A stretch of 64,000 nt of DNA from Fomitopsis serialis (lineage: Eukaryota > Basidiomycota > Agaricomycetes > Polyporales > Fomitopsidaceae). Position 1 is the stretch's first letter, and each line of letters opens with the position of its first letter. The translations under genes and the position numbers were made by a program. Positions 25,714-54,276 of this stretch are shown here, piece after piece. Under the pieces are notes generated by a model. That model ran no database searches. It worked only from the letters and a program-made list of their open reading frames with translations, and was not told where the DNA came from. The DNA lies in NCBI RefSeq assembly GCF_022376445.1, contig NW_025954966.1, positions 248,001 through 312,000 on the forward strand. Direction: 5' to 3'.

Positions 25714-26808
25714 TCAATTCTGCCTAGCGCCTGAGGCCTCAGCTGTCCGATAGTGCGACTCCAGCCTCTCACCCAGTCGCACATAGACAGCGTCCATCCA
25801 GCGCCAGAATGTGGGATCCTTGCCCGATGGCTTAAAAGGATTCCCGTCTTCATCGTCAGCATCACTAACAGTTGGATGCCTGGACGCGGGGGTGCTGTAT
25901 CCGGCGGACATGTATCCCGCTGAGTCCGCCGAAGTCACAGAAGGTGATTCTTGATCTGAAGGGTTGCTCCAGTCCACAATGCTGCTTGACTCTGGGGAGA
26001 ATATCGGCAGCGACGGGGATGACCCCTCGCTCGAGACAGGCGAGTGCCATCCTAGTAGAGAGTTGTCGGCGGGGTGCGGGATTACATGGTCCGGAGGATC
26101 GAGCGGCCGTAACGGTGTCGGCAGGAGTAGACCTGGCGCGGCGTCCACGGAAAGCGCACCTTCCCCTTGCCCTGATTGGAAGCCCAGCGATGGCCCGGGC
26201 CCGGGTTGAAGTGGCATTTCTGCCTTGTTTACGGAGATCCCCCGCCGGCGAGGGAGTGGCTTCATGGTGCGCGGGAGCCACTGATTCTCTAGCGAGGCGT
26301 CCAACCGCATGTCCATCGCGGGTGATGGCGACCGCCGCCGACTCGACAGCGCATCGGTGGGTTGAAGTTGCGAGTTGCGATTCGCAGGGTCCAGAAGCCC
26401 ATCCCGGGGTATCAGGCTCTCAAAACCTGGCGCACTGCCAGGCGAAGTGTACTGGCTCGCCACGGCGCGCCCGCCGACAAGGATCTCACCAGGAGGGATT
26501 GCGCTCAGTGTTTGGGCTTCATGACCAAGTTCCGATATCGGGTCTTCAAAGAGTGAGTGCAGGCGCGAACTCGTAGGCACTTTATCTGCTGTTTCTGGTG
26601 CGGATGTATATGCTACCTGGGAATATCGAGTCATTTCATGGACTGGTCCACCCCACGACTGTTCGATTCGAGCCGCGCTGGCAGCGCTCTCTCGCTTGTA
26701 CTTGGGTCGCTTTTTTCTTGGAACAGGTTGTTCATCGACGTCGTCAGTGCCGTCACTAGCGTCCGCCGTTTCTTGCCGCTTGCGACTAGTAGAGGACGCG
26801 GTGGGCAC
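25714..26808 (-). CDS. Segment S protein, copy A: unknown protein with NLS-like patch and FWRWMDAVYVRLGE tail
   Basis: A 364-codon uninterrupted frame. The N-terminus has basic clusters (PRKKRPKYKRESAASAARIE) that could act as a nuclear localisation signal. The middle is Pro/Ser-rich and probably disordered. The end carries the motif SGKDPTFWRWMDAVYVRLGE, which is kept almost perfectly in copy B (52240-52300). Copy A ends ARQN while copy B continues to LLITDIDY; the equivalent tail in copy A is in another frame, so copy A has a late frameshift. I recognise no known domain. It lies inside a repeated segment, so it may be an element-borne gene. TE2 inserted 71 bp upstream of its first ATG, which should separate it from any promoter or upstream exon. 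Confidence 0.5.
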   Translation of the reverse strand: MPTASSTSRKRQETADASDGTDDVDEQPVPRKKRPKYKRESAASAARIEQSWGGPVHEMTRYSQVAYTSAPETADKVPTSSRLHSLFEDPISELGHEAQTLSAIPPGEILVGGRAVASQYTSPGSAPGFESLIPRDGLLDPANRNSQLQPTDALSSRRRSPSPAMDMRLDASLENQWLPRTMKPLPRRRGISVNKAEMPLQPGPGPSLGFQSGQGEGALSVDAAPGLLLPTPLRPLDPPDHVIPHPADNSLLGWHSPVSSEGSSPSLPIFSPESSSIVDWSNPSDQESPSVTSADSAGYMSAGYSTPASRHPTVSDADDEDGNPFKPSGKDPTFWRWMDAVYVRLGERLESHYRTAEASGARQN

Positions 26809-26904
26809 GACCGTCGTCCTGGCCGTCGTCTGCGTCTTTCTCTAGTGAGCCGGTCTCGGTGCGGTTCGAGGGCGGCTTCAGGACCCCGGGCAAGGCGCTT
26901 ATAC

Positions 26905-27056
26905 GTCCGATCCTGGTGCGGCCATAACCAGCCCAAATAGGGCGCTCATGTCCGATCCTGGTGCGGCCATAGACCTGCCAGAGCTCGCGCCATGTCCGAT
27001 CCATATGCGGCCATAGATGCTGTCACGTTCGCATGTCCTATCCGTATGCGGCCATA
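26905..27056 (+). repeat. TE2 left subterminal repeats, four units
   Basis: A 22-bp unit, GTCC(G/T)ATCC then four variable bases then TGCGGCCATA minus one, occurs at 26905-26926, 26950-26971, 26994-27015 and 27035-27056. Start-to-start spacing is 41-45 bp. Related units occur near the right end at 36402-36424, 36443-36464 and a shorter one ending at 36490. Iterated subterminal motifs of this kind usually bind the transposase. Confidence 0.85.
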
Positions 27057-27652
27057 AATTGACCTCGTGGTCGCCTTTGACGGCGAAGCCAGTATCGCGA
27101 GATTGGTATGTAGCATACTTCACGTCGTGGATCTCTCAGCAGCTAAGCAATGCTACTAACTTCTGTGGATGGCATCGCGGGTGATGGTATCTGCTCGGGC
27201 CTGGAAGATAACTTACTGATTCGCTACGATGATCGCATGCAGCTGCTTGTTATGATTGGGACCCCGGAATTGCAGATTCTCTGAATGCGTCCGTCATGTG
27301 GGACTTGGTAGACTGGCCAAGCTTGTATTGTACTACAATGTGAGTCTCGCCTCCTGTTTACAGAATACTATACATAGCTGTATTCACGCTGAATTCATGC
27401 ACCGCAGTGTAGGATTTACGCGCGCAACGCGTCTCATTAGCCTCTCTCGCAGATCACGCGCCGATGGCTCGACACGGACACATGAAGATTGCTAGTAGGG
27501 TGCGTTCGACCTGGTTTGGCTGACCAAGATACAGGAGACTAAAGCATCTCGTTCTTCGAAGGCTACCACTCGTCCGGAGACACGTACGCGTTCTTCAAGG
27601 CGGGGGCCACTCAATCATTGTGCCTGACATGCTTGGCTACGGCGGCATGGAC

Positions 27653-29745
27653 TATGGCGTACCGTTTGACGCAAAAATCCATACCCCCTACATGAATCGG
27701 AAACACCCCCTACATATGTTCGCCACCCACTGCATACACTTTCGCAACACAGCTACATACATTCCCGCTACCCACACAGTACTACAATATATTTCGGTAC
27801 GGACCCCACTACATGTTCTGCAACTGACTACCCTACATATATCGCACCGTCATTACGTAATCATCCATTCTCAGTAAGTCCTTTCTATGGACTCGGTTAC
27901 ATAGCTTTCTTCCCCCCGTCGAGCGAATGGGCAGAACCACCGCTCGGCTTGTACGACGCGCTCATTGCGAGCATCAACCCGCTAGGCCCGCTCGATGTTG
28001 AGCGTCGCGAGCCCGCGCTGAGTCGACGGTCGGTGCTCCGGGCGCTAGCGCACAGCGCGCTGCTCTCGACCGCCACGACCATTGCCACGACCGCAACTCT
28101 GCCACCACGACCACCCAGCCTCTCATCAAGGCGCTCGCACTGTCCCAACGGGCAGGCGAGCTGAAGTCAGTGACAATCCTGAACTGCCGCCAGCTTAGTT
28201 AGGAGCACCCGACAACCCCTCTGCGCGCGGTACAAGACCGGTGCATCCTTCCTCTCCCGGGCCTCAAAAGCCACCCGGGGGACCTCCACTCGACCCTCTC
28301 ACCTCCTCTCTCGTATCTGGCGACGTCTCTTCAGCTCCCGCGGCTCTGGCGACACGCAACAAGGCCGCGCGGCTCCGGACGTGCACGACCCGTGTGCAAG
28401 CCCAGCGCCGAGCAACAACGCTGCTCAGACAACCGAGAACGCCGCGAGAGAGATGCAGAAGGAGGAAGGGGAGAAAGGCAGGAAGAGATAAGAGGGGGAA
28501 GGGCGCGGGACGAGCAGAAAAGACGAGCACGAAGGCTCGGATACCGCAGGTACGCCCTCGATCCCGCCTCGCCGTCCCCGCTCCCAGTGCCCACGCCAGT
28601 AGGCGTATCGACGCACGAGGCATCCGTCGTGCGTCCTACTGGCCACGAACACGGAACGCCCGACTTTCGGGACGACCTCTGTGTCGTACCCACCACGTTG
28701 CACGGCAACACGGGGGACGCACAGAGCTGCGCGTCCGACGTGCCCGTGTCGTCGACACTGCCCGCGCCAGCAGGCGTACCAACGAGCAAGAAGCCGTGGT
28801 GCGCTCTGCTGGCCAAGAAGACAGCGTCTTCGACTTCCGGGACGACCTCAGCGCCGTACCCGGCGTTCCCCAGGGCAACACGTCGGACGCGCATCGCTGC
28901 ACGTCTGACGCGCCCCGTTCTCCTACGAACCACCACACAGACGGTACGTCGAGCACACCACTCGATGTACCCGCTGTCGACGAGAATGACGCAACGCCCG
29001 ATGTACTAGCAAATGTACCCGGCATGCTCGTCGGCATCTCATGCGCGACCGATGGCCCCGAGGTACACTCTGCAAAGGTGCACCCGGTACGCACGTCACC
29101 GGCTCCAGTGCCCGAGTCGGGAAGTAGCACGACGGACAACAAGGTCGTCGCGCACTTCTCTGACGTTCAAGTCGGCGCACTGGACCTGAGCAGTAGCACG
29201 ACCACCGTGTCTGCTGCCCCACTTCGCGAGGCGGCGTGTCTGGAGAGCCTTCGAGCTCTACCACACCGCCTCTTCCTATACTTCTACCACAGCACACTGC
29301 GGATACGTCGAGCCCTCTGCTTGATGCATCCGCCGCTGCTCTTTCTCTGAACACGCGCAATGTACGGCCACCCGTGCTCGCCGCCATCCAACACGCCCCT
29401 ACTCGGCGTAGCGACGCACCCGGAGAACATGCTAGTTCTACCGGGTCGTCCTATTGATCCTCTACACCACGTCCGAGTCGTGTTGCGCATATGTCGAGCC
29501 CGCCGCTCGACGTACACACAGCCGACTTCCAGGGTGCGCGCGACGCATCCCATCCATGAGCGTCCTCGCCACGACCTATTATTCCCGTGTCAATGGACAC
29601 GAGTCTGCCCCCGGCACCGATGTATGGTACTACGAGCACCGAGCTCGCTGCACCCGGTATTGGCGACCTTACTGGGGTAGCGAATCCTCATAACGGCCTG
29701 GCTAATGACCCGGGTGCCGCCACGACGCACGACGTGTTCGGCGTG
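27653..29745 (+). repeat. TE3 left inverted arm
   Basis: Colinear inverted match to 33690-35588. Landmarks in both arms: the CCCCTACAT subterminal motifs, a peptide-coding block (FF-PSSEWAEP, LYDALRASINPLDPLDVERR), a conserved block around GCATCCTTCCTCTCCCGGGC, and a repetitive-protein frame that stays open in both arms. Arm lengths differ by small indels, so the arms have not been recently homogenised. Confidence 0.8.
27686..27845 (+). repeat. TE3 subterminal motif array, CCCCTACAT type
   Basis: At least five copies of (C)CCCTACAT or a one-base variant occur in about 160 bp. The opposite arm carries the reverse (ATGTAGGGG, ATGTAGTGG) at about 35405-35560. This arrangement resembles transposase-binding subterminal repeats. 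Confidence 0.75.
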
Positions 29746-32290
29746 CTACCCAGCACGACCGACGCATCTGGCTTCATCGCAAAGACACGATTGTCGTCTA
29801 CGCCGAGCCCGTCGCTCTGCGTGCACGACAAGACCGACATTCGCAACCATGACCAGGTCGCCGTCGACGTACCCAGACGCACGTCAGCGACGTCTCCTTC
29901 GTCAAGGTGCGAGTCCATCATCAATACTATGCCCTGCGACACAGCCGGAGTGCAATCAAGCACGCTCGGCGCGTCCACATCTACCTTCAAGGCATACTCG
30001 TCGAGTACGGCGAGTTCATCACTCACCATGCACAGCAAGCCCACCACCTGCGATGACGTCACCATCGACGCGCCCAGAAGTACGTCGATCGACGCATCCA
30101 CATCGATGTATACCAACATCAGCGACGACGCCGCGATCGACACGCTCAAAAGCTCGTCGATCAGCTTGTCGACACTGCGGCCCACATCAGCGTCGACTTC
30201 CACCTCAACGGGATGCAAGGCTCCGTAGTCGACATTGGCCATGTCGTCCAGCATCAAGGATCCGTCCGACGGCCTGGCTAACGAGCCCAGCGCTGTCGCG
30301 ACGCTCGACGTGTTCGGCGTGCAGCTCAGCATGACCGACGTGTCGTACGCCTTTCATGCGACATCCATCCATCATATAGGAATTACGTCGACTCGGAGCT
30401 CGAGGCTTGATGTATTATCTGTCGATGAGTCTTCGAATGCACGGTCCGCACGCTTGTTCGTGCCTACTGATATCCGTCAAGCTTATGCCTTGATGCGCAC
30501 GCATTCGGTACCCATCCCAGTAGATGGTACAGCGAACAATGAGTTCGTTGCACCTGCTGCTGGCGATTCAGTCAGGGTACTGAATCTTCGCGATGAGTTG
30601 GTCAACGAGCCCACTGTCACGAAGTACGACGTGTCCGGAGTGCAAACGAGCACGACCGGCGCGTCTTCTTCATATACTACAACACCTGCTCTTCGTACAG
30701 AGAGCACGCCGAGCTCGAGGCTTGACGTGTTCACTGTTGACGAGCCTAGCAACGCGCGCAACGCACGCTCTAACGTGCTCGCCGCGTATCTCAAACCCCA
30801 TGTACTGGGTACGTCGAGCAACAGCTCGCTCGATGTACACTGTATTGATCAAATTCCTTCTGCAACGATGGAGGAGGGGGAAGGGATTGCCCGCGGTTTT
30901 CGGTCCGAGACCAAGGACTCAAGACAAGCCGAAATATCTGCAATACAAGGAGTTCCGACCGACGTTCAGAGAAGCACGTTGATCGCTATACCGATGTCTG
31001 GCATGTCTGGGCTGTATCCTACGCCCAGCGATGCTGTCGACGCGTGATCAAGCACGGTCGACGCGTCTACCCCCACTTCCACGGTCAAGACATGTTCGTC
31101 GAGTACAGCAAGCTCAACGATCACCGCACATGGCGAGCACAACACTCTCGATGATGTCGCCATCGATGTACCTCTGAGCACGTCGATCGACTCATCCGCA
31201 TTGTCGATCACACCTACTCCGACAAGGGGCAAGACCAGCCCGGTCAAGGCTCCGTCAAGCGACGCAGTCAGCGTGCAATTGAGCACGACTGGCTCGTCCT
31301 CCTCTATCAAGATGCTGTCATCGAGCAGAGCGAGCCCTTCGCTCGCTGCATATGGCGAGACCGACACCGGTGACAACGCCGTGATCAACGCGCCCAAAAG
31401 CTTGTCGATCAGCTCATCGACATCGCGGCCTGCACCAGCGTCGACTGCCTCTACATCAACGGGATGCAAGGCTCCGGATTTGACACTGGCCATGTCGTCC
31501 AGCCTCAAGAACTCGGCCATGATGGACGAGAGCTCGACGAAGGACAGTACATCCAACTTAAAGGATGTACTGACTCCGTCAGCATCGCCATCAACGAGTA
31601 CTGTGACTCGCCCGCAAGATGAGCTGTCTCACTCAAGCTCGTACGAGCGGTACAGGCCTCCCGCACTACGTGATCAGGCCCCAGTCCGTGCACACCAGGA
31701 GTCAAGCTCGCAGGCGCAGGAACCTTCGGCCGACGAGCAAGGCCAAAACCGGCCTGCGCTTGAGTCAAAAGTTGGATGACACATCCGCCTTGGATATACC
31801 GACATATTCTTGGCCGGAAAACTGCTGCACGTACGAGGAGCTGAGCTCGAACGTGCGCCCTACATCCTCCATCAAGACGTTGTCGCCGAGCATAGCGAGC
31901 TCGTCGACAACACTGCACACGTCAGCTTCGACAATCCGTGAGCACGACGGCGTGAAGAAACACAGTACACCCACTCTGTTGGATGTACTGCCATCTTCAC
32001 GGTTGCCAGTCTTGTCGAAGACTAGGAAGCCGGGCATGTCGTCCGACACAGGGACAAGCAAGTCCGTCAGCTTCGATCGCGGAAACCCACGCGGACGCAA
32101 GTCCAACCTCGGCGCATTTGTGTCGAGTCCCTACACGTTGGGTACCCGCTGCACGTATGAAGAACCGACCTGGCATGCGTGCATGACCTCGACCACCAAG
32201 ACCACCAAGCAGGTCATCGAGCAATCAATGAGGCCCAGTACATCCGAGTCGCCAGATGTACTGACCTCATCGTATGTACTCGATGGCTGA
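28241..32290 (+). pseudogene. Ser/Thr-rich repetitive ORF array of TE3
   Basis: A series of open frames: 28241-29350 (basic Arg/Lys-rich start, then Ser/Thr/Asp-rich), 29236-29457, 29587-30228, 30235-31047, 31201-31779 and 31619-32290. Those at 29587, 30235 and 31201 share one frame and are separated by single stops or short gaps. Recurrent modules are DVFGV or DVSGV followed by Thr/Ser stretches, and IDAPRSTSIDASTS-like strings. A block of about 80 bp at 30177-30256 recurs 1.25 kb later at 31424-31503; the first copy has a TAG where the second has a sense codon. The equivalent frame is also open in the right arm (33740-34558, minus), which suggests the protein was once expressed. No known domain. 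Confidence 0.5.
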
Positions 32291-32319
32291 GCTGGAATCA
32301 AAGTGCCTGCCAGTGGGGC

Positions 32320-33159
32320 TCATCGCCTGTTACTCGTCAGCTGGCAAGCGGGCGAGTATGAGTACGAGTACGGCACAGATAGAGTCACCTCACCTGTCTC
32401 TGAGGTGGTGGCTACCTCACCCCGCATGTACATAGACCAGGTATTATGCCACAAGAGGCACGATACATCTACGATGGGTGTACCATCCTCGTCGCGCTTG
32501 ACAGCAAGGCTGACCTCAACAGAATGCTCACATCCTCCACCGGAACGCGAGTAACCTTCCATGCGACCAGACAGTCATCGCACGCACAAGGAGTCGACCT
32601 CGCATGGGCATGACAAGGCTGGCACCTTCACCGATAATCTGTCCACTGAGCACCACACTCTCGAGCAGCTGCTTCACCTTCTCCATTGAGATCCTCACAT
32701 AGAACGGTTTGAACGTTCAACAGAATGGTATTCATCCCCTTCATATACATAGAACACCTGTCCGTTGACTGTGAAACACCACTGATCACCCGGCATGATC
32801 CCCCTGTTTGTTAGGGCTCGGCAGTTCGAGTCCTGGACACAAGGGGCGGGCTACCCGGCGAGACTAACTATGGTGGTCGCTCGGCGACCGGGGCAGATGA
32901 GTTGATGAATTGTGAGGTCGTTAAGGGGGCGTAGAACCCGTAGAGGTCGTACGAGGACTGTTGAGTCCTCGTTAAGGTCGTTCACGCGGCTGTTGAGCTC
33001 GCGCTGGCAGTCGGCAACGAGCCGGACTGTAAGGGAGTCGGCAACGAGCCGGACTGTAAGGGAGTCGGCAACGAGCCTATCCCAGGTGCAGTGACGAGCT
33101 AACACCTTTGAGACGAGAGCACGACGAGCACTCTTGTTGATGGCCAATCCCGCAGTCAT
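32320..33159 (-). other. Unrecognised minus-strand coding-like fragments in the TE3 centre
   Basis: Three minus-strand pieces look protein-like: 32320-32562 (SVEVSLAVKRDEDGTPIVDV), about 32700-32800 (PGDQWCFTVNGQVFYVYEGD) and 32851-33159 (NDLNEDSTVLVRPLRVLRPL). They could be exons of a decayed gene captured by TE3. No family recognised; frames are not joined by convincing splice sites. Confidence 0.3.
33009..33077. repeat. 27-bp tandem repeat, 2.6 copies
   Basis: Two identical 27-bp units starting AGTCGGCAACGAGCCGGACT (33009-33035, 33036-33062) and a partial third. On the minus strand it encodes a repeated LVADSLTVR peptide. Confidence 0.9.
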
Positions 33160-33431
33160 ACAGCGTGAATAGTTCGCGCGCGGACGATATGGTTGGGAGT
33201 AAAAGGCTGCTTTCCATTTTGGTAAAGCGCGCGCCTTCGGCGAGACGCACGCCTAAGTGTACAAGATAGGAACAGAATAAGTAAATACTGTATGCGTCGT
33301 AAGTATCTAGGCTCGGGCAGTGAATACATGCGGGTCACGGTTAAGTATTGTACGTAGCACAGAAGAGATTTATATATGCCATCTTAATCCTGTCCGTAGT
33401 GTCCGTAACACTGTTCACAATGTCCTCTTCG

Positions 33432-33660
33432 CTATACAGTATCTGGAGCAGCTTGATCATCTGAAATCCGGAGTGCACCGTAGGTCGACGTCTCCGTACA
33501 CTGCCGCGAAGCGGCGGGTCTCATGGATGTATCGGAAGAGACATCGTACGGCCTTGAGACGGGTGAGAAGGGTCGCGATGGAGGTTGTGACAGGTCTGAG
33601 GTCGGACGCGAGGCACACACATTGTTCATTGTATGTTGGGCAGATTAGCAGGTAGTGGTA
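33432..33660 (-). mobile_element. Non-LTR retrotransposon (LINE) 3' fragment
   Basis: The minus-strand frame contains HYLLICPTYNEQC followed by IATLLTRLKAVRCLFRYIHE and TRRFAA. This is the C-terminal signature of basidiomycete Tad/LINE-type reverse transcriptases (the H-[FY]-L-L-x-C-P-x-[YF] motif and the downstream LFRYI-x-x-TRRF). Only the last 70 or so codons are present; no reverse transcriptase catalytic core is nearby. It lies at the inner edge of the TE3 right arm. Confidence 0.7.
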
Positions 33661-33689
33661 AGTACAGTTAGAAAGACGTGCCAGTCGTG

Positions 33690-35588
33690 CGTCGTGTGCC
33701 GCGACAACGCTGGACTCGTTAGCCAGGCGGTCAACGGTGTCAGTGGCTCCGTAGAGTTGCCAACACCGGGTGCAGCGAGCTCGGTGCTCGTTGTACCACA
33801 CATCGGTGTGGGCAGCAGACTCGGAGAAGTCGAGATGGGAATGGGCAGGATAGCGCCGAGCACGGGCAGACGCACATCACGCATGCCCTGAGGGAAAGCG
33901 ACAGGGGATACATCAGCGATGAGCTCGATGTATCCGCCGCATGCGGTGGTATCGAAATACAATGAGACGGCCCGGCAGAACTAGGGGCCTCTCCGGGCGT
34001 GTCGTCAGCAGACACACTTGTAGTGCTGCTGCACAGGCCCACCACTCCATCTTTGACGTCAGGGAGGCACACAACGAACTCGTTGTTCGTCATGCTGCCT
34101 TCCGACGCGGGCGTTGCGGCCATGATGTGCGTACGGGGTCCACCATCGTGGGGTGTACTGTGTACACCGGTGCCGCCGCTCGCGCATGAGGAGTCGGCAA
34201 GCGCGCTGGGTACATTTGCGAATACACCGGGCACATCGTTGTTCTCGCTGACAGCGTGTACATCAAGTGGTAGGCTCGATGTACCCATTGTGCGGCAGAT
34301 CGTAGATGGATGGGGCACGTCAGACGTGCAGCAATGTACGTCCGACATGCTATCCTGCGGAACGTCGGGTACGACCATGAGGTCGGTCCCGGAAGATGGA
34401 CATGCCATCTTCGTGGCCAGCAGAGCGTACAACGGGCTTCGTGCTCGTTTGTACACCTGCTGGCGCGGGCAGTGTCGATGACACGGGCACGTCGGACGCG
34501 CAGCTCTGTGCATCCGCCGTGTTGCCGTGCAACGTGGTGGGTACGACACAGAGGTCATCCCGAAAGTCGGGCGTGCCGTGTTCGTGGCCAGCAGGACGCA
34601 CGACGGACGCCTCGTGCGTCAATATGCCTGCCGGCGTGGGCACTGAGAGCGGGGACGGCGAGGCGGGAACGGGCATCGAGGGCGTACCTGCGGTATACGA
34701 GCCTTCGTGCTCGTCTTTTCTGCTCGTCCCGCGCCCTTCCCCCTCTTATCTCTTCCTGCCTTTCTCCCCTTCCTCCTTCTGCATCTCTCTCGCGGCGTTC
34801 TCGGTGGTCTGAGCAGTGTTGTTGCTCGGCGCCGAGCTTACACACGGGTCGTGCGAGTCCGGGGCCGCGCGGCCTTGTTGCGTGTCGCCAGAGCCGCGGG
34901 GAGCCGAATAGACATCGCCAGATACGAGAGAGGTGAGAGGGTCGATTGGAGGTCTCCCGGGTGGCTTTTGAGGCCCGGGAGAGGAAGGATGCACCGGTCT
35001 TGTACCATGCACAGAGGGGTTGTCGGGCACTCCTAACTGAGCTGGCGGTAGTTCAGCTTCAGCTCGCCTGTCTGTTGGGACAGTGCGAGCGCCTTGATGA
35101 GAGGTCGGGCGGTCGTGGTGGCTGCCCGGGAGGTGGTGAGAGACGAAAAGGTGGTGGCGGTCGAGAGTAGCGCGCTGGGCACTAGCGCCCGGAGCGCCCA
35201 CCGTCGCCGACTCAGTGCGGGCTCGCGACGCTCAACATCGAGCGGGTCGAGCGGGTTGATGCTCGCAACGCGTCGTACAAGGCGAGCAGCGGTTCTGCCC
35301 ATTCGCTCGACGGGGCGAAGAAAGCCATTGCCTTATTCGAGTCCATAGAAAGACTAAGAAAGGACTTACTTATTGAGAATGGATTACGTAATGACAGTGC
35401 GATACATGTAGGGGTAGTCGGTTGCAGAACATGTAGTGGGGTCGGCGCCGAAATATATGTAGTGTGGGCAATGAGAGTGTATGTAGTGGTATTGCGAAAG
35501 TGTATGTAGTGGGTGCCGAACATATGTAGGGGTGTTTCCGATTCATGTAGGGGGGATTCATTTTTGCATCAAACGGTACGCCATATTA
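33690..35588 (-). repeat. TE3 right inverted arm
   Basis: Inverted, colinear counterpart of the left arm. It contains a minus-strand frame starting MDSNKAMAFFAPSSEWAEPL near 35343, and the repetitive-protein frame at 33740-34558. Both read inward, mirroring the left arm. Confidence 0.8.
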
Positions 35589-36547
35589 ATGGACAAGCCG
35601 GCGGAGACAACAAACACAGCGCGATATGCGCGGACGTGAGAACGTGAGCAAGGCGATCATGACAGAACACCAGAACACCACTGGTGAGTGCTTCAGTAGC
35701 TGGGAAAGGGCATCCGACGCTGCACGTCTCATTGAGACGCGATGTGGTCGTAGTGGTACCGCTTGGGCCAGGTTCAGCCAGAGCAACTGGCCCGTAGGAT
35801 GTTGGCTACCCAGGCATACTGGCCAAGTGTTTGACTCGCAGGGGCGCATTTCTCGTACTCTACCGAGAGCGTTTTCTCGCATTCGCATTCGTCTCGGTCG
35901 GCTACACGCCATTGTTCGCGAGCTTCAAATATGCGACTGCCATCGCCGCGGTCAAGCAAGCCATCGGTCACGAGCCTTAGGGCCACTGGCAGTGACCAGC
36001 TACAAACAATCTCACAGTCGACCTCATTCTAAAGATGCGCCAGGTTCTTCGTCGACCTCGAGTACCAACCAAGTCATGAAGGACCATATCAGTACTCCTG
36101 ACCTCCCATGTTCGCTATCATCTCGCAACCGACTGGCTTGCCCGCTTGATTGTCTCTCACCATCCGTGTCAATTAGCGACTACTCTTGTGACGCGCCACC
36201 TAGAGTACATTCGTACTTACGAATGTTGGGCGCTCGAGATATGGTACTCGGCGCTTATGCGTATGTGCTACTCATGCAACCGTTTTGACGATAAAGGGAG
36301 ACAAATGTGGGCGTTTTCCTTGGTAGTCTACTCCGACGCAATGTGTGGGCCATGCAGCGTTTTTACGGGCATTTTCTCCGATTTTACCGCATTTTTGAGA
36401 GGTCCGATCCGTCATGCGGCCATAAAGCACCCCTACAGGTAGGTCCTATCCTGATGCGGACATAACAGGGGTCAAAATCGTGCGGACATAAGGGCCCAAA
36501 ATCCGGGGTTTTCGGATCGGACCTATAAGCGCCTTGCCCGGGGTCCT

Positions 36548-37277
36548 GCGGCTTCTCGTATCGCTCTTCCTCGTGGCGTGCGCACTGTACTAGTACAGAG
36601 GCCAGTAAGTACTAACACACGGCGGTACCCTACCCTGAGGTCCTCTGTCAATGCGACATCGTCAATCCATCTGCGCCTTCTTTGAGTAAGAGGACCATGA
36701 GTCACATATGATACCTGACCCTCTGCTCCAGATAAAGGTGTGTGGGCTCGGCAGTACGATCAGCGTCTACGCGGGAACGCACGCCGTTTATGGTGTACAA
36801 AACAGCACCGTCCACGCCGCGCACTGGTCACTGAGCGTACGCGGCGAGTACACATTCACCGTGAAGCAGGTCGAGGACCCTCGTACTACGAGCCCACTGG
36901 CGAGTCCGAACAAGTATTGACCGGCCTGCCAAGGTCGTGTCATGATGTCGTCTGACACAGCTTCTCTCTACATCGCAAATTTCTGCACTTACCTGGAATG
37001 TCACTCGAATCGAGGGATGTTCAATACTACGACACGAGTTGGCAGAGTGCCGTCGCCGGGTGAGAAAAGATACATCTCGAAGATTGACCCCTTCTTCAAA
37101 GCTCGAAACATCCGTGATTTCTGACAAACCAGACGGCTTGTCTTCCCGTAATGCATATACCTCGGAAGCTGCGCGCATGCGGCAGCAAGGTGGCAACCGA
37201 TTTACCCACCGGCAAGCGCCGGATGGCGACACGGCGGTTCACTGGCAAGCGTTCAACGTTCAGTAGCCACGTGTACG
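36548..37277 (-). repeat. Segment S, copy A, part 2
   Basis: Continues segment S after TE2. It matches copy B at about 49964-50692 in inverse orientation and runs into TE1 at 37278. It contains a decayed coding-like stretch (GLGSTISVYAGTHAVYGVQN, then GEYTFTVKQVEDP) that resembles the extracellular beta-rich part of fungal transmembrane proteins; copy B has the same stretch with indels, so both are relics. Confidence 0.85.
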
Positions 37278-37413
37278 TAGTCTCGAACCCGCCTCTCACG
37301 GACACCCTAAAAGGGAACCCGTCCGTGAGAGTCTGGACGAGAACGAGCGCCCTAGGGGGACCTTTGCGTCTCGCGACTCGCGGCGGGCGCTTCACTCACT
37401 CGCGCGTCGCGTC
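37278..37413 (+). repeat. TE1 left terminal inverted repeat (136 bp)
   Basis: Perfect inverse of 42687-42822. It contains an internal hairpin, arms TCTCACGGAC (37294-37303) and GTCCGTGAGA (37321-37330), with a smaller CCCT/AGGG stem in the loop. Confidence 0.95.
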
Positions 37414-37546
37414 GCCTGTACCATCGCGCTCTCCTGCGTGTGCGGCGCGATGTATAATACCCTTCTTTAACTGCAATCCATTCGTTTGTCTCCGGAAACC
37501 CGCGCGGCTGTCTTTCTACGCGTTTAGAGCTCTTCGGAGCTGTAAA

Positions 37547-39614
37547 ATGCAAGCTGCAGTATGGCCTCCACCTCGCAAGCGTCGTCGTGCTGAGCAGGAC
37601 TCGCAATCCACACATGCCCCACGTACACCATTGACAGGCTCGTCGACCAATGCCCAGCTCCTTACACCTCACTCGCCAACCCGCCATGTTCAGGCCAGTG
37701 GCCAGTCTCTTGCTCGTGAGCAGTCGAGGGGCAGTCCTTCCGACTCGCCGGGTCGCATATCACCACTCGCCTCGAAGGCCAAGAATCACCACGCTCTCTA
37801 CCGCAATGGCTACGTTCTCAAAGAGAAACCCCCTCCCTACAAACCATACTCTCTCAACGCTCCAGGACGGCGTCGGCGCCAGGCCTTCGCATTCGAGTGC
37901 GATCTTCCGCCCAAGATCAATCCGACCACACCACTCCTGAGAACACAGTGGAGCATGCTTGCTCGCGGTGCAAAAGCTATCCCGCTCGAGGGAGAGGTCA
38001 AAGAGCTTCAAATGGAGTGCTCCAATGCAATTCTCGCTCGCAGTGGGGACATCTGCGTGATTGCACCGACCGGCTTCGGCAAGTCTCTCCTATGGACTCT
38101 CCCGCTCCTTACTCTGGATCGCGGTGTAGTCCTCGTTATCACACCTTTTACGAGCCTCGGAGAGGAAGGTCAGAATCAGTGAGTCCGCACACATCTGCTT
38201 ATGTTATAACCGTTTGTTCATGTCACTGCGATCACAGGACGAACACACTGGGTATCCCGTCGGTGTTCATACATGCAGGCCGCAAGGACTCAGCAACCCT
38301 TGAACAGGTTGCGAGTGGCTTTTATCGCGTGACCTACGTCTGCGTCGAGATGCTGGAGTCGCCCGTGTTTGCGCAGATCCTGTACTCCGAGTGGTACAAG
38401 CGCCAGCTCGTCGCGATCTTCATCGACGAAGCGCATTGCGTTCACGAGTCGGACACTTGGCGTCCTGCGTATGGCCGGATGCATCAGCTGCGAACGACTG
38501 TGGGTAGTATGACCCCATTGATCGCCATGTCGGCTACTCTGCCTGCGCTGTATCGGGCGTCACTCACTGCGCATGTGGGAATGAAGGATGATTACATCCT
38601 CTTCAACATCGGAAACTTCCGTCCGGAGCTCTCGACAGTTGTCATACACATGGAGCACGATGTGAAGAGCTTCAAGGACCTCCGATTTGTGTTGCCGCGT
38701 GGGGGACAGTCACTCGCAGACCTGGACAAGTCAATTGTCTATTGTGATGACACAACACTGCTCACCGAAATGCTCTATTGGTTCCGACAGAAGCTCGAGG
38801 ACCTCTCCCTTCCCGGAAGTGCGGTCGACATCCTGCACGCCGGCCTATCTCCGGACCATCAGAGTCGAGCACTAGCAGACTTCAAAACAGGACGGACGCG
38901 GATACTCTTGTCGACCGAAAAGCTTGGCGCAGGCATGAATTTTCCGTTGGTAAAGCGAGTCATCCAGTACCTCTGCAGTGGTCTCACTATGGCAAAAGCG
39001 GACCAGCGCCGTGGGCGTGGTGCGAGAAGCCCCGGCATGACTGCAGTAGGCTATTTCATTGCAGAGAAGAAGTTCGAGCGCGGAGGCAAATTGAGTCCGC
39101 AGAAGCCTGGCCATGAGGACCCTGGGATAATCGAGTTGGTCCAGACAGAGCGCTGCTGCGACTCCGTCTTTGATCATTACCTCGAGAACCCCCACGCCCA
39201 TCTGATAGTGCCCATCTAGTACCACGTCGTCTCTGCTGCTCCAATTGCTACCCCCAGCTCATCCCTCCGCGCGAGTTCGAGTTCGTGATGGTCAATCCCG
39301 CAGAAGACGAGTCGCGGCGCGCGGAGCGCCAAATGTCCACAAATGCGAAGCAGACGGTGCTCGCACGTCTGCAGGATTGGCGGGACAACGAGTGGCGCGA
39401 GCGATGGCGCTCCCGCTGGCCATTGTACGGCCCAAAATCGCTCATCTCGGACAAGGATCTCGAGGCCGTCGCCGACCATGCAGGTGCTATTCGGCGAGTT
39501 GACGACCTGTACCCGTTGACACATATCATCCACTGGGATGATTTGGCGGAGCCGCTCTTCGACGCTATCCAGGCAGCTCTTCGTGCAGTGGGTGATACTG
39601 GGACAGGCCCATGA
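37547..39614 (+). CDS. TE1 RecQ-like superfamily 2 helicase, with a 14-bp duplication that shifts the frame
   Basis: ATP-dependent DNA helicase of RecQ type. The start is the ATG at 37547 (MQAAVWPPPRKRRRAEQ), just inside the left TIR. Exon 1 has Walker A as CVIAPTGFGKSLLW and a CA|GTGAGT splice site, with an intron of about 60 bp ending ATCACAG. Exon 2 has IFIDEAHCVHE (DEAH box), IAMSATLP (motif III), DILHAGLSPDHQ (motif IV), LLSTEKLGAGMNFPLVKRVI (motif V) and QRRGRGAR (motif VI). A Cys-rich stretch (ERCCDSVFDHYLENP, then CCSNCYP) resembles the RecQ zinc-binding site. Between these two Cys pairs, GCCCATCT occurs twice around 6 bp (39196-39217), creating a TAG and a frame change; the frame reopens to 39614. 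Without the extra 14 bp the frame is continuous. Probably acts in transposition of TE1 (inference). Confidence 0.85.
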
Positions 39615-39765
39615 CGAAACACAATGGTGAGCATGACCTTTTTATTGATGATACATTCAGGACTAAGTCGAAATTCGCAGGACACTAGAGTGACGGACAA
39701 TCAGCCGGTGCTACGAAAGCTCGAGCTAGTGTAGTCACCCGCAGACCGTGACGGTCTGCCGTTCC

Positions 39766-42612
39766 CTACGCTTCATAATCATTGTATGGACTACCTGACC
39801 TCAATCCATTCTCTCCTGCTCTTATCAGATCCACGAGTTCGTTCTCCTGCGCGTGTTCGAAGCCGTTAATCGGACCATTGTCGCTGTGAGTGTGCAACAT
39901 GACTTCGGCTCCGTCCAATGTATCTTCGGCATTTGCCAGTTCATTTTCCGCCTCTGTGATGTCTTCGACAGAGTTCTCCGGGTGCGTGTCCCCATGTGAT
40001 TCATCTGCATGACGAGAACGGAGTCGAAGACGGTGTCGGAGAAGGTGCTTCGCATGGCCGCCATGTGGGCCGGCCAGTTGATGAAGGCCAGTTCGAAAGA
40101 GATCGGTGATGGCATGCTCAGACACCTGGTCGAGAGCGAATGACAGTGCGTGCGACGTGACAAGGTGATTCGCAAGGAGCCGGATGTCGGTATGTTGCTG
40201 CACCTTGGCATGGTGTTCATTCACGTCGCGCACACCTGTCTCCTTGTACACACGATCTGTCAAGTCCCTTACGTGACCAAGTGATGGTGTGACTTTGCAG
40301 AGCATCTCGGGTGTGGCATTCGTGCCATGCGCGCGGTTCTTGATGCGTAAATTGAGGTGTTCGACGTCCAGATCTGCCTCGAGAAAGCCATCAGGCTCAC
40401 CAGTTGTATTGACGAGCATGCTGGCTAAGAGGACTTTGGCGGTATCCTCTGGCCAGTCGTGTATCAGGTTGTGCAGTAATTCCATGCATTCGTGGGCATA
40501 ATTGTAGCTTCGCCCTGCATAGAACATGGGTGTCCAGAATTTGAGGATCCGTAGGATCCGAGTCGGATGTCCGTGCTTGATAGCATGACGCATCTCTCGT
40601 AGTGTCATGAGATCAAACATTGTGAGTGCAGCATGGCCCGAGGTCGTGTTTCCCTTGACCGACTTGATTCCGTCGGCCTCAAGACAATCTGGTGAAGACA
40701 TGACATATGTATCGACGATCGTCTCGCACATGGTCCGGAATTCGGCTGCTGTTGGTCTCTGCGAGGAGAGCTCTGTCGTGTCCTTGAGCACGAGGGTTGA
40801 GACTGCAGCGGAAATCACGAGTGCTCGTAGGACACAATCCAAGAAACGCAGCCATGCATAGAAGTCGAATTTCTGGATATTGATCTCGCTCCGGTTTCGG
40901 AGCAAATCACGGAGTGTCTGAAGGCTCGTTGTGTCCCTGTTTTCTCCGCCCCAAAGGTTTTTGGCACATGCCTGGATGAAGTTGAAGCATACATGCATAA
41001 GCCCACTCGTCATAGCGAGGCTTGAGAGGTGGTCCGCCCTGAAATCGGAGCGATCGACTCCTCTTTGGTCCTGCGCTGCCCGATCGCGTGCAGTTGTGAG
41101 CCGGTCCCCAAGAACGAAGAACATTGTATCTTCGAAGACTGCTTTAGGGATCTGCAGTACATCGATGAAATAGTGTTTCAACACGGCCATGTTGCCGCGT
41201 GTCGACCCTTGCTCTTGGTCGAACGTCGGTAGGTAATGGCGATCGGTCTTGCGTACGGGAATCGCATCGGGGTCAACAAGCCCTGGAACACTTGCACGGA
41301 AACCCGCAAATCCCGCAACCTCGTCCACCAGAATCATCATGACATGGCTGATAGCTGCGTCACGGAAGGCAGTATGGTCTGCTTCACTCGGCACAATGTC
41401 CTGCAAGGCTGTCTGTGCAGGCAGCCGGTGACGAGTCCCACGGCATGCTTCGAAACGCTCAACACTTGCGAGGCGATGTGCGGTCCCACTTTCAGGAAGG
41501 GTGAGGCTGATGACCATCGCGGATACCTGGTCATGCTGTACAGCACCGTGGAGAACTGATGTCTCCCACACACCGGAGACCCAGTTGAAATTGTCGTATG
41601 GCAGCATGATCATATTTCGGGGGTCGTTGGCGATCTTGCGTGCGATGCGAAGTGCGTTCGCCGAGAGCACCAGGATAGAGGTACATAGGTGATCATAAGA
41701 CACAGAGACACCGAAGCGATTCAGCATCTGGACGAGGCGCTTCGGTGCACGGTTATCCCATAGGATCATGCTATTGATGACCTGATGTACGTTGGACTTC
41801 TGGCTACGCAGATTCAACAGTATCGATGTCGCCAATGTGCACCCCTATATGCAATACTCTGTAAGCACAGGTCTAAACAGCTAGGCCCGAAACACACGCA
41901 CATCGTCTGGATTCCGGCTTTCGCTATCCCTCGCTGTGTTCTCCTTGTTGATGATTGCCTTCATGATCATCCGAGTCCGAGGCATAGTCTTGGAATACGC
42001 TGCCGTGAGGTCCTCGATTCGGAAGGACTTCAGCTGTGCGACAGACACGGTTGTCGCTGGCGAGCGAAGTCGTTCAGCATACACAGTATGCGGTCCTTCC
42101 GCAGCTCTGTCTGTGAGCCAGCCTGCCTCCCGTGCACATATCTTCGCTGCTCTCTCTGCGACCCAGCTGCATACGTCCTCGTCCCGCAGTCCAGACATCG
42201 ACCAGAGCACTTCCAGCAGCTCCGGGATTCCACCATTGCCCTTCCATGTATTCACATAGTTCTTGATACCTCCGGAGTTCGAGGAGAACAGCGTCATGAG
42301 GAATGTACGAAGTGAAAAGCGGGAGAGGTTCTCCCGCATGAATTTCAGTACTGCGAACGCCTTCTCCTCGTCACTGCGGCGCCGCGCAGGAAGACCATGG
42401 CTTGGTACATAGCTCAGGTCTCCTTCGTCATCCTCTGGGAAGTCCGGCAGTGTACCGAAAGGCTCCGGCGGCAGGTCATCGACCTCAATCGCCTCCACTG
42501 GTGGTGACGAACTCGGTGCAATAGAGCTCAATGCTTCGGGCTCATCCGAGTCGTCAACGAGTGTCAGATAGCCGGTATTTCGCACAGATCGAGTAAGATA
42601 GGATAACGGCAT
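39766..42612 (-). CDS. TE1 DUF6589-type protein, candidate transposase
   Basis: Two large frames, 41881-42612 (MPLSYLTRSVRNTGYLTLVD) and 39766-41835, join across a short intron (donor GTGCGTGT after NPDD, acceptor ATATAG), giving about 920 residues. The N-terminal part is acidic and probably disordered, followed by FSLRTFLMTLFSSNSGGIKN. The main part has INSMILWDNRAPKRLVQMLN, MILVDEVAGFAGF, MFFVLGDRLTTARDRAAQDQ, SGLMHVCFNFIQACAKNLWG and later HAALTMFDLMTLREMRHAIK. These segments match my memory of the fungal DUF6589 family. The conserved Asp residues in ILWDN and GDRLTTAR could belong to an RNase-H-like catalytic site (inference). The tail is rich in Asn, Glu and Asp. It is the best candidate for the enzyme that moves TE1. 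Confidence 0.72.
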
Positions 42613-42686
42613 GATTTATTGCAGTCTAGTGGAAGATATGTAGCCAAGGTCGAGATTGTACGCTCGCGCGAGCCTCAAAGGCGAGA

Positions 42687-42822
42687 GACGCGACGCGCGA
42701 GTGAGTGAAGCGCCCGCCGCGAGTCGCGAGACGCAAAGGTCCCCCTAGGGCGCTCGTTCTCGTCCAGACTCTCACGGACGGGTTCCCTTTTAGGGTGTCC
42801 GTGAGAGGCGGGTTCGAGACTA
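42687..42822 (-). repeat. TE1 right terminal inverted repeat (136 bp)
   Basis: Perfect inverse of 37278-37413. The DUF6589 gene starts 75 bp inside it, so the TIR may also serve as its promoter. Confidence 0.95.
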
Positions 42823-42876
42823 ACGTGTACGATATCAAGACAGTTATCCATATACGGACAGTGACTATGTACCGTC
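42823..42876 (-). repeat. Segment S, copy A, part 3 (outer end)
   Basis: About 45 bp beyond the TE1 duplication match copy B 49919-49963 inverted; similarity stops at ACCGTC (42876 / 49919). This marks one end of segment S. Confidence 0.85.
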
Positions 42877-48513: not shown

Positions 48514-49918
48514 ATGCTTTCCCTGCGCGTTCTCCTAGCATTCTTATTGGTGGGCCTTCATGTTATGCGAGTGCTGGACGGTGGACAGACGAATTGGAGG
48601 TGGGCAATACATGTACCATCCAGCCGTTGGGAGAGGGACAGGACGATACAGACCAGGTCTGTCTAACTTCGCCAAGGGTGCGAACCATTACGTGACTACT
48701 TTGAACATTCGTGGACAGATTGAGGCTGCCATTGCGCGATGTGGCCATTACGGAACGACAGTCATCTCCGAGGGGGTCTACAATGTGACGAGGTAAGTGT
48801 GCTCGACGCTACTATCGACTCATAGCGGACTCACCAATGTACAGGAAGATGATGTGGGACCTGGTCGAGGCCAGGGTGGACCTGCATGGTTATCTGAATG
48901 TGCGCATTGACGTCACGCTGCTCGCCGCTCGCTGACCTGGAACCACAGTTCACAGCAAATCTGCCGTACTGGATCAACGCAGAAAACACATATCGTGTCG
49001 TGTACATCCAGGTGATCCAGTATACCGCATCAGGCAGGGAGCTCTTGCTGATAGTCTCTCTGCAGGACCAAGCATCGTGGTTCGTTGTCACAGGGCGCGA
49101 CTTCACTCTCGATGCGCATAACACCGGTGGGATCATTGGCAACGGGCAGTACTGGTGGAACTGGTACGGCACCACTAGCCGGCTCGGCGGCGACGGGCGG
49201 CCTATCGCCTTCACGCTCTGGCGCGTCCTGAGAGGCGTCATCAAGGACTTCCGGATCGAGGGCCAGCCATTCTGGTGCAATACGGTCGCCGAGTCCAAGG
49301 ACGTGGTATATGACGGGATGTATTGCAACGCGACGAACACAAATCCAGAGTACTATGGGTACAAGTGAGCAACATTCGGATAGTGCTGCAGTTGATATAG
49401 CTTACATGCGTGCGGTAGCGTCGTCCCGAACACGGACGGTGAGTTCGGTCTCTGGACATGCGACGATGCCCCGGGTCTGACCTGGGCGTAGGTATCGATA
49501 CGTTCAGAGTGGACAACGTCACGATGCTCAACTGGGATGTAAGTTCTGAATACCAGACATCGACTGGTAGTCCTGGTGGTCCTAACAAATTGAATAGATG
49601 ACGTTAGGAGATGACTGTCTTGCGATCAAGGGTGTAGGCAGCCTTACCCACAGCTCGCAAAACGAAGCCTGACGGAACCATATAGAACTCCACAAATCTC
49701 TACGCTCAGAACATCACATGCCACGGCGGCAACGGGATCGCTGTTGGTTCCCTTGGGCAATATGCAAATCTCGCACGTACCAAGATTAAACGACCTCACT
49801 CGACGAAGGATCACTGACGCTGTGAGATGCAGTTTGACCGTGTCGAGAATGTGACTCTGGAAGACATTCGTGTAAGCAAATGTGTACAACAATTGACTCA
49901 CGTTGATGTCGTACTGTA
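48514..49918 (+). pseudogene. GH28 polygalacturonase-family gene, copy 3, truncated by segment S
   Basis: Closest to copy 2. The start MLSLRVLLAFLLVGLHVMRV is a signal peptide. The sequence between it and NTCTIQPLGEGQDDTDQ is 2 bp longer than in copy 2, so the frame is broken near 48580. Downstream the exons are well kept: IEAAIARCGHYGTTVISEGV, LPYWINAENTYRVVYIQVIQ, WFVVTGRDFTLDAHNTGG, FRIEGQPFWCNTVAESKDVV, the NTDG and GDDC motifs, and CHGGNGIAVGSLGQYA. Similarity to copy 2 stops exactly at an intron acceptor CTGTAG (49918), where segment S begins; the C-terminal quarter (after the 'TLEDIR' exon) is absent. It is inverted relative to copies 1 and 2. Confidence 0.85.
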
Positions 49919-49963
49919 GACGGTACATAGTCACTGTCCGTATATGGATAACTGTCTTGATAT

Positions 49964-49972
49964 CGTACACGT
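49964..49972. other. Unoccupied TE1 target site
   Basis: CGTACACGT, the inverse of the 9-bp duplication that flanks TE1. The bases on both sides match both TE1 flanks in copy A. Confidence 0.92.
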
Positions 49973-50684
49973 GGCTACTGAACGCTTGCAAGTGAACCGC
50001 TGTGTCGCCATCCGGCGCTTGCCGGTGGGTGAATCGGTTGCCACCTTGCTGCCGCATGCGCGCAGCTTCCGAGGTATGTGCATTACGGGAAGACAAGCCG
50101 TCTGGCTTGTCGGAAATCACAGATGTTTCGAGCTTTGAAGAAGGGGTCAATCTTCGAGATGTATCTTTTCTCACCCGGCGACGGCACTCTGCCAACTCGT
50201 ATCGTAGTATTGAACGTCCCTCGATTCGAGTGGCATTCCAGGTAAGTGCAGAAATTTGCGATGTAGAGAGAAGCTGTATCAGACGACATCATGACACGAC
50301 CTTTGCAGGCCGGTCAATACTTGTTCGGACTCGCCAGTGGGCTCGTAGTACGAGGGTCCTCGACCTGCTTCACGGTGAATGTGTACTCGCCGCGTACGCT
50401 CTGTGGCTGCGCGGCGTGGACGGTGCTGTTTTTTGTACACCATATACGGCGTGCGTTGTTCTCGCATAGACGCTGATCGTACTGCCCAGCCCACACACCT
50501 TTATGTAAATGGATCTGGAGCAGAGGGTTAGGTATTATATGTGACTCGTGGTCCTCTTACTCAAAGAAGGCGCAGATGGATTGACGATGTCGCATTCACA
50601 GAGGACCTCAGGGTAGGGTACCGCTGCGTGTTAGTACTTACTGGCCTCTGTACAGTGCGCACGCCACGAGGAAGAGCGATACGA

Positions 50685-50692
50685 GAAGCCGC
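50685..50692. other. Unoccupied TE2 target site
   Basis: GAAGCCGC, the inverse of the 8-bp duplication that flanks TE2. The flanks match both TE2 flanks in copy A. Confidence 0.9.
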
Positions 50693-50868
50693 CCTCGAAC
50701 CTCCTCGAACCGCACCGAGACCGGCTCACTAGCTAGTAGCCACTCGTGCGGTGGGCACGGCTCCACGTTCTCGCTAGCTGGCCGGATAATGGGCAGCGTG
50801 TTGATGGCTGGTCGACCATATGCGGCGGACAATGGAAGATCGACTGACCAATCACAGACGTGCGAAGC

Positions 50869-52374
50869 ATGGCCGAAGCACCGCCGCCCCGATACCTCAT
50901 TAGCCACGCGTTGGTGAGCCTTTCTCTCTCATACCGCCAGCTTGACGTGGACTGTCCATCGCACCGTGACTGCCATCGACCTACATTCAACCGCCGCAAT
51001 CGCGCTCAGAAACTCTACAATCAGCCAAGACGTCATGGTCCAAGTTCACAAGGCCACAAACAAGAGGTTGAGAAGTGGGATGTCATAGTGCCCGAAGAGG
51101 TATGTCTTGCGTAGCTTGAGCCCTTTTGTGCCACTGACGCAGAGCGTAATAGGCGGCTCGCGGATCTATGACCACAAGAAGGAAGCACGGAGAGTCTCTC
51201 AGAGCAAGACGATAGGTTCGGGCAAGGCGCCCCAGCTGACGCAGTGCGCGACACCCGTGCCCACCACGCCCTCTAGTCGCAAGCGGCGAGCAACGGTCGC
51301 CAGTGGCGGCATTGAAGACGTTGTGAACCAATCAGCTACAAGTAACAAGCGATCGAAGTACAAACGGGAGAGCGCTGCCAGCGCTGCTCGGATCGAAAGG
51401 TCGTGGGGCGGACCAGTCTCTGGAACGACTCTAGAGCCACCGGCAGTGTATACGCTCGCGTCGAACGCAACTAGTATAATCTCGACGATTCGCAACGGCA
51501 ACTACGCAGCTTCAAACTTCCGCCGCCTCCCCGCGGCCATACTGCAGGAGGTAGTAGTTCAACTGCTCCGGAGCAAGTCCCCACGTATAGGCATGCTGAG
51601 GAGAAACAGTGTACTCAGCCTGTGCCAAGTCTCAGGAACCTGGCCTTCCCCGGAGTCGGACTCCAGGACTCCGTGGATCCTATCCCTCAACCTCACCCCA
51701 CTGATGATCCGCTGCCCACTTCGCGGCCGTGGCTATTACCTGCCATTGACATCGCCGGCTCTGAGTGGCAACGGCCTGAAGTCCCACGTGCTATTAAGCC
51801 ACTCCCTCGCTGGGCGAGGATCTCTACTGGCACAACGAGCGCACAAGTGCACCCTCAAACCACGCCGTCACCGGGTTCTGTCAACAAAGGAGAATCACTC
51901 ACTATGGGTATCGCGCCAGGTGCGGTCCCATCGGCAGTACCGTCGTGGTCGATGGCAACCCCGGACTACGTGAATCCACACACAGCAGGTGACTTACCAG
52001 GGTGGCACTCGTCCGTCTCGAGCGAGGGGCTGTCTCAATTTCCCCCGCCGATATTCACTGCCGAGCCAAGCGACGCTGCGACCGGGAGCAGCCCGTTGGA
52101 ACATCAGTCACCTTCTATGCCATCGGCGGACTCGGATGGATATACGTCCACCGGATACGGCACACCCGCGTCCAGTAATCCAGCCATTAGTGACACCGAC
52201 GATGACGATGGGGACTCGGAACCTTTCGAGCCGTCGGGCAAGGATCCCACATTCTGGCGCTGGATGGATGCTGTCTATGTGCGACTGGGTGAGAAGCTGG
52301 AGACGCACTATCAGCCGAGGCCTCAGGCGCCAGGCAAAGTTGAACAATTACTCATAACTGACATTGACTATTGA
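50869..52374 (+). CDS. Segment S protein, copy B: unknown protein with FWRWMDAVYVRLGE tail
   Basis: A possible first exon (MAEAPPPRYLISHALVSLSL to EKWDVIVPEE) splices, phase 0, across GTATGTCTTG...CTGACGCAG (51100-51142) to VIGGSRIYDHKKEARRVSQS. The frame then continues through a basic patch (NKRSKYKRESAASAARIERS) that matches copy A. The frame of the N-terminal half ends at 51973; the matching C-terminal half (51622-52374, VGLQDSVDPIPQPHPTDDPL onward, ending LLITDIDY) is in another frame, so a frameshift or an unseen intron lies near 51615. The conserved tail SGKDPTFWRWMDAVYVRLGE is intact. The upstream exon is missing from copy A. Function unknown; a nuclear protein is possible because of the basic patch. 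Confidence 0.45.
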
Positions 52375-52384
52375 CGTCAATAGT
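52367..52384. repeat. Perfect 18-bp palindrome ACTATTGACGTCAATAGT
   Basis: Counterpart of 25674-25689. Centred on TGACGTCA and overlapping the stop codon of the segment S ORF. Confidence 0.75.
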
Positions 52385-52717
52385 CTCTGACATACGTTCA
52401 GACCAAGATACACCTTGCGATTACAGCGAGTTTCATCCATACTAGTAAATCTCTTGACTGCATGTTATTGGGTTTGGTAACTGTAGATGAATACAGTGAC
52501 TGCATTACGAGACGAGCGTGGACCAACGTAAAAGCGACTCGGACACAGGATCTTACCTATCATACTCGAGCCTCCTTGTTCGTGCAGGTAATAATGAGCT
52601 TCTGATAGAACAGCTTTTGTCTGATCGCTGGTCGCCGCATAACGAATACATCATGGCGCGTGTGACCTGACTTCGTCAGTAGTGAATGTGTTGCCTTCCA
52701 GGATAAGACACTGGCAT

Positions 52718-52757
52718 GTTATGAGTGAATACGCAAAGTTGAATAATCACTCATAAC
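52718..52757. repeat. Hairpin GTTATGAGTG / CACTCATAAC, copy B
   Basis: Matches 25309-25348 in inverse orientation. A further related hairpin lies at 53609-53651 (arms GTTACGAGTGATTA / TAATCACTCATCAC). Confidence 0.75.
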
Positions 52758-54276
52758 AAACCAGGGTCTCATCCCCTGGGGTTGCCGGATAATGAAAAGG
52801 GAGCATTCTTTGTACGGATACAACTGTTCTCGAGTCGCGCCTGACAGTAAACATAGCGATGGAGATCCCAGAAGTAACGTCACTCACGTGTACTCATACA
52901 GGCGACACGGAGATGAGCGACTGAAGAAGAAGGCCTGAGGTGCGCGTCTCCTGGTACCTGGTCACTGGGTAGTCGCTGGTCCCACTGAAAGAGAAGTCGA
53001 AATAGGATGCCGAAGGCAGGAGGATCGAAGGGGAGACCGACAGCAGTGAGACATGGGCCGTTGGACGCCGGAGAGAAGCGAGCGCCACACATCACGGACT
53101 CGTGCGCGACAGACATGCTACCGTACATTAGCTTGCGGCGGGAGATGCGACGACTCTTACGGAGGGCGAGAGTCATCCGTATGAACCGACGGCGTGTGGT
53201 GATCGTCACCATATTTCGTCCTCTGTAGGTCCCTGCAAACCGGAAGGTACGTCAGTGGCGATGAAGGGGGAGAAGGAACTCGAAGTATCGCACACCAGAG
53301 CTGACCGAGACTCGCAGTGGCATGAAATACGAATGACTATGCATCAAGTGTGTTCATGCCATGTCAAGGTAATGAAAATCATTAAAACCAAGGATCGCTG
53401 CGAGTAATAGTCATTTCTGGGCCGTATGATTCAAGCCGAATACGGAGTCGGACTGTCGAGACGAGACAGTGAAGGAGATTCTTGGGGAATATCTGCGAAG
53501 GACCTGGTGTCACTGAGCGTATTGGCCACAAGCTGATATGTCCACGTATCTCGGATGAGAGCTTGTAACTCAGGAGGTGTGCTTGATCTTCAGACAGCGG
53601 CACGGCAAGTTACGAGTGATTACTCACGCAGCAGGTGTAATCACTCATCACGAATAAGCGTCCAGTCTCCTCACATATTCTTGAGCGACCTTGCCACGCG
53701 CGGGAGGTGTGCACATATCAAACCCGTCGGAGGTACACTGATACGTAGAATCGAGCGTGGTCCGCCACAGATATCGCCTTGAGAACACGAGCTGTCAACG
53801 CGGCTGGTGGTAAATCTGTGGGCGAACTGGTGGGAAGCTCGAAGAGGGGAATGAGAACTGTGATAGCTATAGGGACCGGTTACCTACTTATATATACTTT
53901 GAGTCGGCCATCCGCATCGATGATCCGGATTGATCAGTAATCCATGTTCCACGACAGCCACGCGCTGAAAGAAAGCGGTTAAAGCGCTCGACACACGGTG
54001 TGCAATCTGGATGATCCTTGACATCGATGTTGCGGATGTTAAGGACATTGATATTGACGACGCCGTCATATTGAGGTCGGGCCCGGTCCGTTTGCCTCGT
54101 CCGAACGTCGAACCATACAACAAGGATACCAAAAGGTCGCACAGGGTACTTGGCAAATTGAGGTCAGCGTCTGAAGCTGCAGAGGGACTAAATCAAGTGG
54201 CATTCACCTCGTTTCTCGCTCAGAGTGACCGAGTCGTGATGCCGTAGCCTCACCACCCAAGCAAATGTCCGCATAG

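Follow-up and report, generated by a model that had tools for sequence, protein, structure and literature searches.

A DUF6589–RecQ-like helicase element in Fomitopsis serialis: a DNA transposon that resembles AcademH

A stretch of 64,000 nucleotides from Fomitopsis serialis (contig NW_025954966.1, here C556, positions 248,001 to 312,000; the window) contains, at 37278-42822, a RecQ-like helicase gene and a DUF6589 gene enclosed by terminal inverted repeats (TIRs). The locus raises the question of whether these two genes constitute a transposon, which protein would move it, and whether such an element is already known. We consider it very likely that this is a cut-and-paste DNA transposon, autonomous in type and of the AcademH kind, with AcademH compared by description. 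The relevant features are as follows, in window coordinates.

37269..37277, no strand: left target-site duplication ACGTGTACG, present as a single copy in the C540 empty site
37278..37413, plus strand: left TIR, 136 bp, starting TAGTCTCGAACCCGCC, 100% complementary to the right arm
37547..39219, plus strand: RecQ-like superfamily 2 (SF2) helicase gene, exons 37547-38178 and 38238-39219, 537 amino acids in the window copy
39766..42612, minus strand: DUF6589 protein, 929 amino acids, likely DDE transposase, exons 42612-41902 and 41844-39766
42687..42822, minus strand: right TIR, 136 bp, last bases CTA, 100% complementary to the left arm
42823..42831, no strand: right target-site duplication ACGTGTACG
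49919..50692, minus strand: unoccupied related copy of the target sequence, outside the element, junction exact at 49952-49980

The original prediction, made from the window alone, was of a recent TIR transposon with identical 136-bp TIRs, a 9-bp target duplication, an exact unoccupied site elsewhere in the window and two convergent genes filling the element. Each of these structural claims was confirmed: the arms are perfect complements, ACGTGTACG lies on both sides, and the helicase (plus strand) and DUF6589 (minus strand) genes converge and fill the interior. A 29-mer spanning the joined flanks had one other match in the window, at 49952-49980 on the minus strand with 0 mismatches, and none of 100 shuffles held one. 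This site sits in a related repeat that is 93% identical over 790 bp. A better empty site was found outside the window by genome search, where the joined 200-base flank matched 200 of 200 positions at C540:7497-7696. C540, compared over 19.8 of 21.4 kb, was collinear with window positions 20031-55038 in blocks of 97.8-99.9% identity, without the element and without the stretch 26880-36547. On the simplest reading, C540 would represent the other nuclear haplotype and the insertion would be heterozygous.

A genome search with the TIR gave 13 matches; the first 29 TIR bases, with up to 3 mismatches allowed, gave 12, all at ends of the window family. The family comprised four full-length copies (C556, C235, C390 and C523), one half copy truncated where contig C674 ends, and two gene-less copies of about 100 bp (C2 and C54); none with the same TIRs around other genes was found in this genome. 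The full-length copies were 99.84-100% identical, with at most 17 gap columns per pair left out. As C235, C390 and C523 had a common duplication, GGATCCATC, and common flanks, and the single end of C674 had the same flank, these four represent one insertion site, and only two independent full-length insertions were seen. No empty site for the GGATCCATC insertion was found in the genome, all 7 matches being flanks of known copies. Read by eye, the short copy in C2 had its own 9-bp duplication, GGGGAGCGG, and that in C54 had none. From this set of copies, their near-identity and the short gene-less copies we conclude that the family is low-copy and, as predicted, recent, and that its ends can be mobile without the genes. 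A reading in which two host genes merely lie between chance or segmental inverted repeats would suit the position of the insertion within repeated, inverted DNA. However, the exact empty site with one 9-mer, the second insertion with another and the short copy with a third refute it, leaving it almost no probability.

An 11-bp inverted repeat, CTCTCACGGAC/GTCCGTGAGAG, lies subterminally in each TIR (37278-37340 in the window) and could form a hairpin. As single-stranded DNA the TIR folded better than shuffled sequences (z -3.0), for which we claim no function.

NCBI lists the window's DUF6589 protein as B0H18DRAFT_1207744 of Fomitopsis serialis with 929 amino acids, the length given by our splice model; it matched PF20231 at 9e-99. 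A Pfam scan covered five translations of the element: the exon-2 open reading frame (ORF) had PF20231 and a sub-threshold PAP2 match, the exon-1 ORF had none, and the other gene had helicase domains. No known transposase family was detected by Pfam on the DUF6589 protein, and neither of the two transposase ORFs had a hAT or P transposase family listed at E values up to 1. Likewise, the DUF6589 alignment, run against PDB sequences, gave 0 matches up to E 1. The predicted structure had the Hermes and P element transposases as its best Foldseek matches, none under E 0.001, and D321, D484 and E732 were conserved acidic residues that are putatively catalytic. Residue counts were taken from alignments of 120 and 80 rows, instead of one of 30 rows that has several partial proteins. 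The predicted fold and these residues make a DDE transposase with an RNase H fold a very probable identity for DUF6589, in line with the original prediction. The modelled likeness is to hAT (Hermes) and P elements, which make 8-bp duplications and are not known to have a helicase gene; the element here is without a hAT or P Pfam match.

The partner gene encodes DEAD (2e-15) and Helicase_C (1.8e-13) domains, and its best PDB relatives were RECQ5, bacterial RecQ and WRN. Its frame stops at 39219 in the window copy and continues in the C235 copy to a point matching about 39614. This difference arises from a one-base length difference between the copies, and the shorter window frame may reflect either biology or an assembly error.

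If the two genes form a transposon module, the pair should not be confined to one family, and recurrence was indeed found. The PF20231 profile gave 93 pieces in the genome, which a 1.5-kb rule joined into 47 clusters, not all independent because haplotype copies are included. With the window helicase as query, a helicase lay within 6 kb of 28 of the 47 clusters. The number rose to 31 (22 convergent, 9 divergent) when three neighbours, picked by eye from a PF00271 search (141 matches; 150 of 174 candidates scored), were added. A PF00270 search was not used: only 35 of 180 candidates were scored, and by eye none of the matches lay within 6 kb of a DUF6589 cluster. Under uniform placement a helicase would be expected near about 0.7% of clusters. 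Five of the 16 clusters without a helicase were within 3 kb of a contig start, which may have truncated the partner; apart from fragments and divergent partners we see no explanation for the remaining 11. At C113:269686-281454 two DUF6589–helicase pairs lie inverted relative to each other and are matched in spacing; this may be an inverted duplication or a palindrome from assembly.

The 31 pairs comprised the four of the window family and 27 of other families, and eight of these 27 were read over 7.5-9.9 kb (L045-L049 and L052-L054). A TAG-based scan found, at all eight, TAG at the left end, CTA at the right end and an identical 8- to 10-mer outside: GAGACACT, CCTTGTCAG, CCGTAACG, CGTTGCGCCG, CTGCACTCT, GGGGAGGGG, AGCTGGCTGG and TCAATGGCA. 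In a control, the other 63 trinucleotides matched a mean of 0.21 of the eight loci and never more than one. L047 and L049, whose ends had been found without TAG, lend no independent support to it because the motif was chosen after the window family and those two loci had been seen. The ends of L045 and L046 also coincide with the limits of their mutual blastn similarity. The TAG scan replaced an earlier one seeded on inverted 10-mers and 9-mers, which had two ends right and missed or misread the others. Over 12 sites including the window family, seven duplications were 9 bp, two were 10 bp, two were 8 bp and one site had none. L054:1532-7658 (C556:78531-84657) is an element of a second, divergent DUF6589 lineage, with TAG...CTA ends, the 9-bp duplication TCAATGGCA and a helicase that is convergent in orientation and divergent in sequence. 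Pairing, ends and duplication length therefore hold across an old divergence.

These results bear on the comparison with Mutator-like elements (MULEs) that had been made for the window element. A duplication of about 9 bp and long TIRs are Mutator hallmarks, and both are present here, so that a MULE might have captured the two genes. However, no MULE or other transposase domain was matched by Pfam in the five translations, no MULE driver was found, and the pair turns up in divergent families bounded by one and the same terminal motif, a pattern not expected from capture. We therefore rejected a MULE identity, and regard capture by such an element as highly improbable.

Recurrence was also examined in other fungi, through 120 listed helicase relatives, of which we took the best 81, our cut being placed where the scores drop. 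For 33 of the 81 the contig was equal in size to one with a listed DUF6589 protein (18 of the 33 exceeding 20 kb), compared to 0 of the 39 lower-scoring relatives; contig-size matching is an indirect test of co-occurrence, and some short sizes may agree by chance. Helicase and DUF6589 genes had consecutive names in Arthromyces matolae (H0H93_015956/015957) and Candolleomyces aberdarensis (EST38_g13408/g13409).

Is such a module new? In 2020 Kojima reportedly described AcademH, helicase-encoding Academ transposons with 9- to 10-bp duplications in fungi. The window element has an SF2 helicase with DEAD and Helicase_C domains (RecQ best in PDB) beside the transposase gene, a 9-bp target duplication, and a DDD/E transposase with an RNase H fold as judged by the predicted structure and the conserved D, D and E. 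PMC10045372 gives duplications of 9 or 10 bp for AcademH and 3 or 4 bp for AcademX and relates these to helicase versus nuclease, and PMC10799480 names DEAD and Helicase_C among domains from AcademH, KolobokH or Helitron and describes AcademH as low-copy in Basidiomycota, Ascomycota and Mucoromycota. By these descriptions, the window element and AcademH are alike as DNA transposons of fungi that encode a helicase and a DDD/E transposase, make duplications of 9 or 10 bp and are low in copy number. In contrast, duplications of 8 bp were seen at two of the loci read here, the two genes converge in some families and diverge in others, and the comparison is one of descriptions, not sequences. AcademX presumably belongs to the same transposase superfamily but has a nuclease instead of a helicase and 3- to 4-bp duplications (PMC10045372). 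Putative non-autonomous elements of the MULE and Academ types are reported in the genome paper on Marasmius oreades, and for RecQ and DNA transposons in Basidiomycota the literature search turned up only a Helitron paper. Since AcademH already combines a helicase, a DDD/E transposase and 9- to 10-bp duplications, the module is not new. The original views that the pairing was undescribed and, if recurrent, a new element type are thus not supported; recurrence and a likely function for DUF6589 are. What looks new is equating DUF6589 with the transposase: the literature searched did not name DUF6589, and we did not find this identity in print.

The known elements that also carry RecQ helicases had to be weighed. 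Kolobok elements target TTAA, whereas the duplications here are varied and of 8-10 bp. RecQ helicases occur in fungal KolobokH, downstream of the transposase domain, and in the red-algal Kolobok-1_CCri, on the complementary strand as in the window element (PMC9587614). The helicase here is a separate convergent gene rather than lying downstream of a transposase domain. KolobokH was rejected because the duplications do not fit and the layout is unlike fungal KolobokH, though like the one red-algal Kolobok; a Kolobok of either type is very improbable.

Alternatively, DUF6589 could belong to a superfamily of its own, not Academ, having gained a RecQ-like helicase independently as in KolobokH. Named DUF6589 relatives in two listings, one covering the best 120 of 153 and the other 80 of 80, all come from what we take to be basidiomycetes, and RecQ helicases also occur in another DNA transposon superfamily, Kolobok. 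No sequence link to animal Academ was reached among these relatives. Against this, AcademH already has the rare combination of helicase, DDD/E transposase, 9- to 10-bp duplications and a fungal host, and we consider independent gain improbable. It is similarly unlikely that DUF6589 defines a largely basidiomycete transposase superfamily with TAG...CTA ends, 8- to 10-bp duplications and a RecQ-like partner in either order, its likeness to AcademH being convergent.

For an AcademH-like transposon, the DUF6589 protein would bind the TIRs, use an RNase H-type DDE centre (D321, D484 and E732) to cut them and join the ends to the target with a 9-bp stagger, and gap filling would create the duplication. 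More tentatively, the RecQ-like helicase might act on transposition intermediates, e.g. by opening ends or subterminal hairpins, or might instead repair gaps or the donor break. Both gene orders occur, which suggests that joint travel suffices for the partners and that they need not form one transcription unit.

Two further observations concern the neighbourhood. On both sides of the 9668-bp stretch 26880-36547, which has the inverted ends AGGACCCCGGGCAAGGCGCTTATA, lies the 8-bp duplication GCGGCTTC (26872-26879 and 36548-36555). Because of these features and its absence from C540 we take this stretch to be a second DNA transposon specific to one haplotype. Its ORFs seem to be of low complexity, and Pfam gave no match for the largest. 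A long inverted duplication (22412-26765 and 48677-54099, blocks 76-98% identical) flanks both insertions.

These results provide a likely function for DUF6589, which many mushroom and wood-rot fungi carry and which Pfam lists as a family without known function. As a likely transposase, its genes could be masked as transposons and not counted as host genes. With its near-allelic empty site, perfect TIRs and short gene-less copies, the element also offers a clean case for asking what a helicase does in a DDE transposon.
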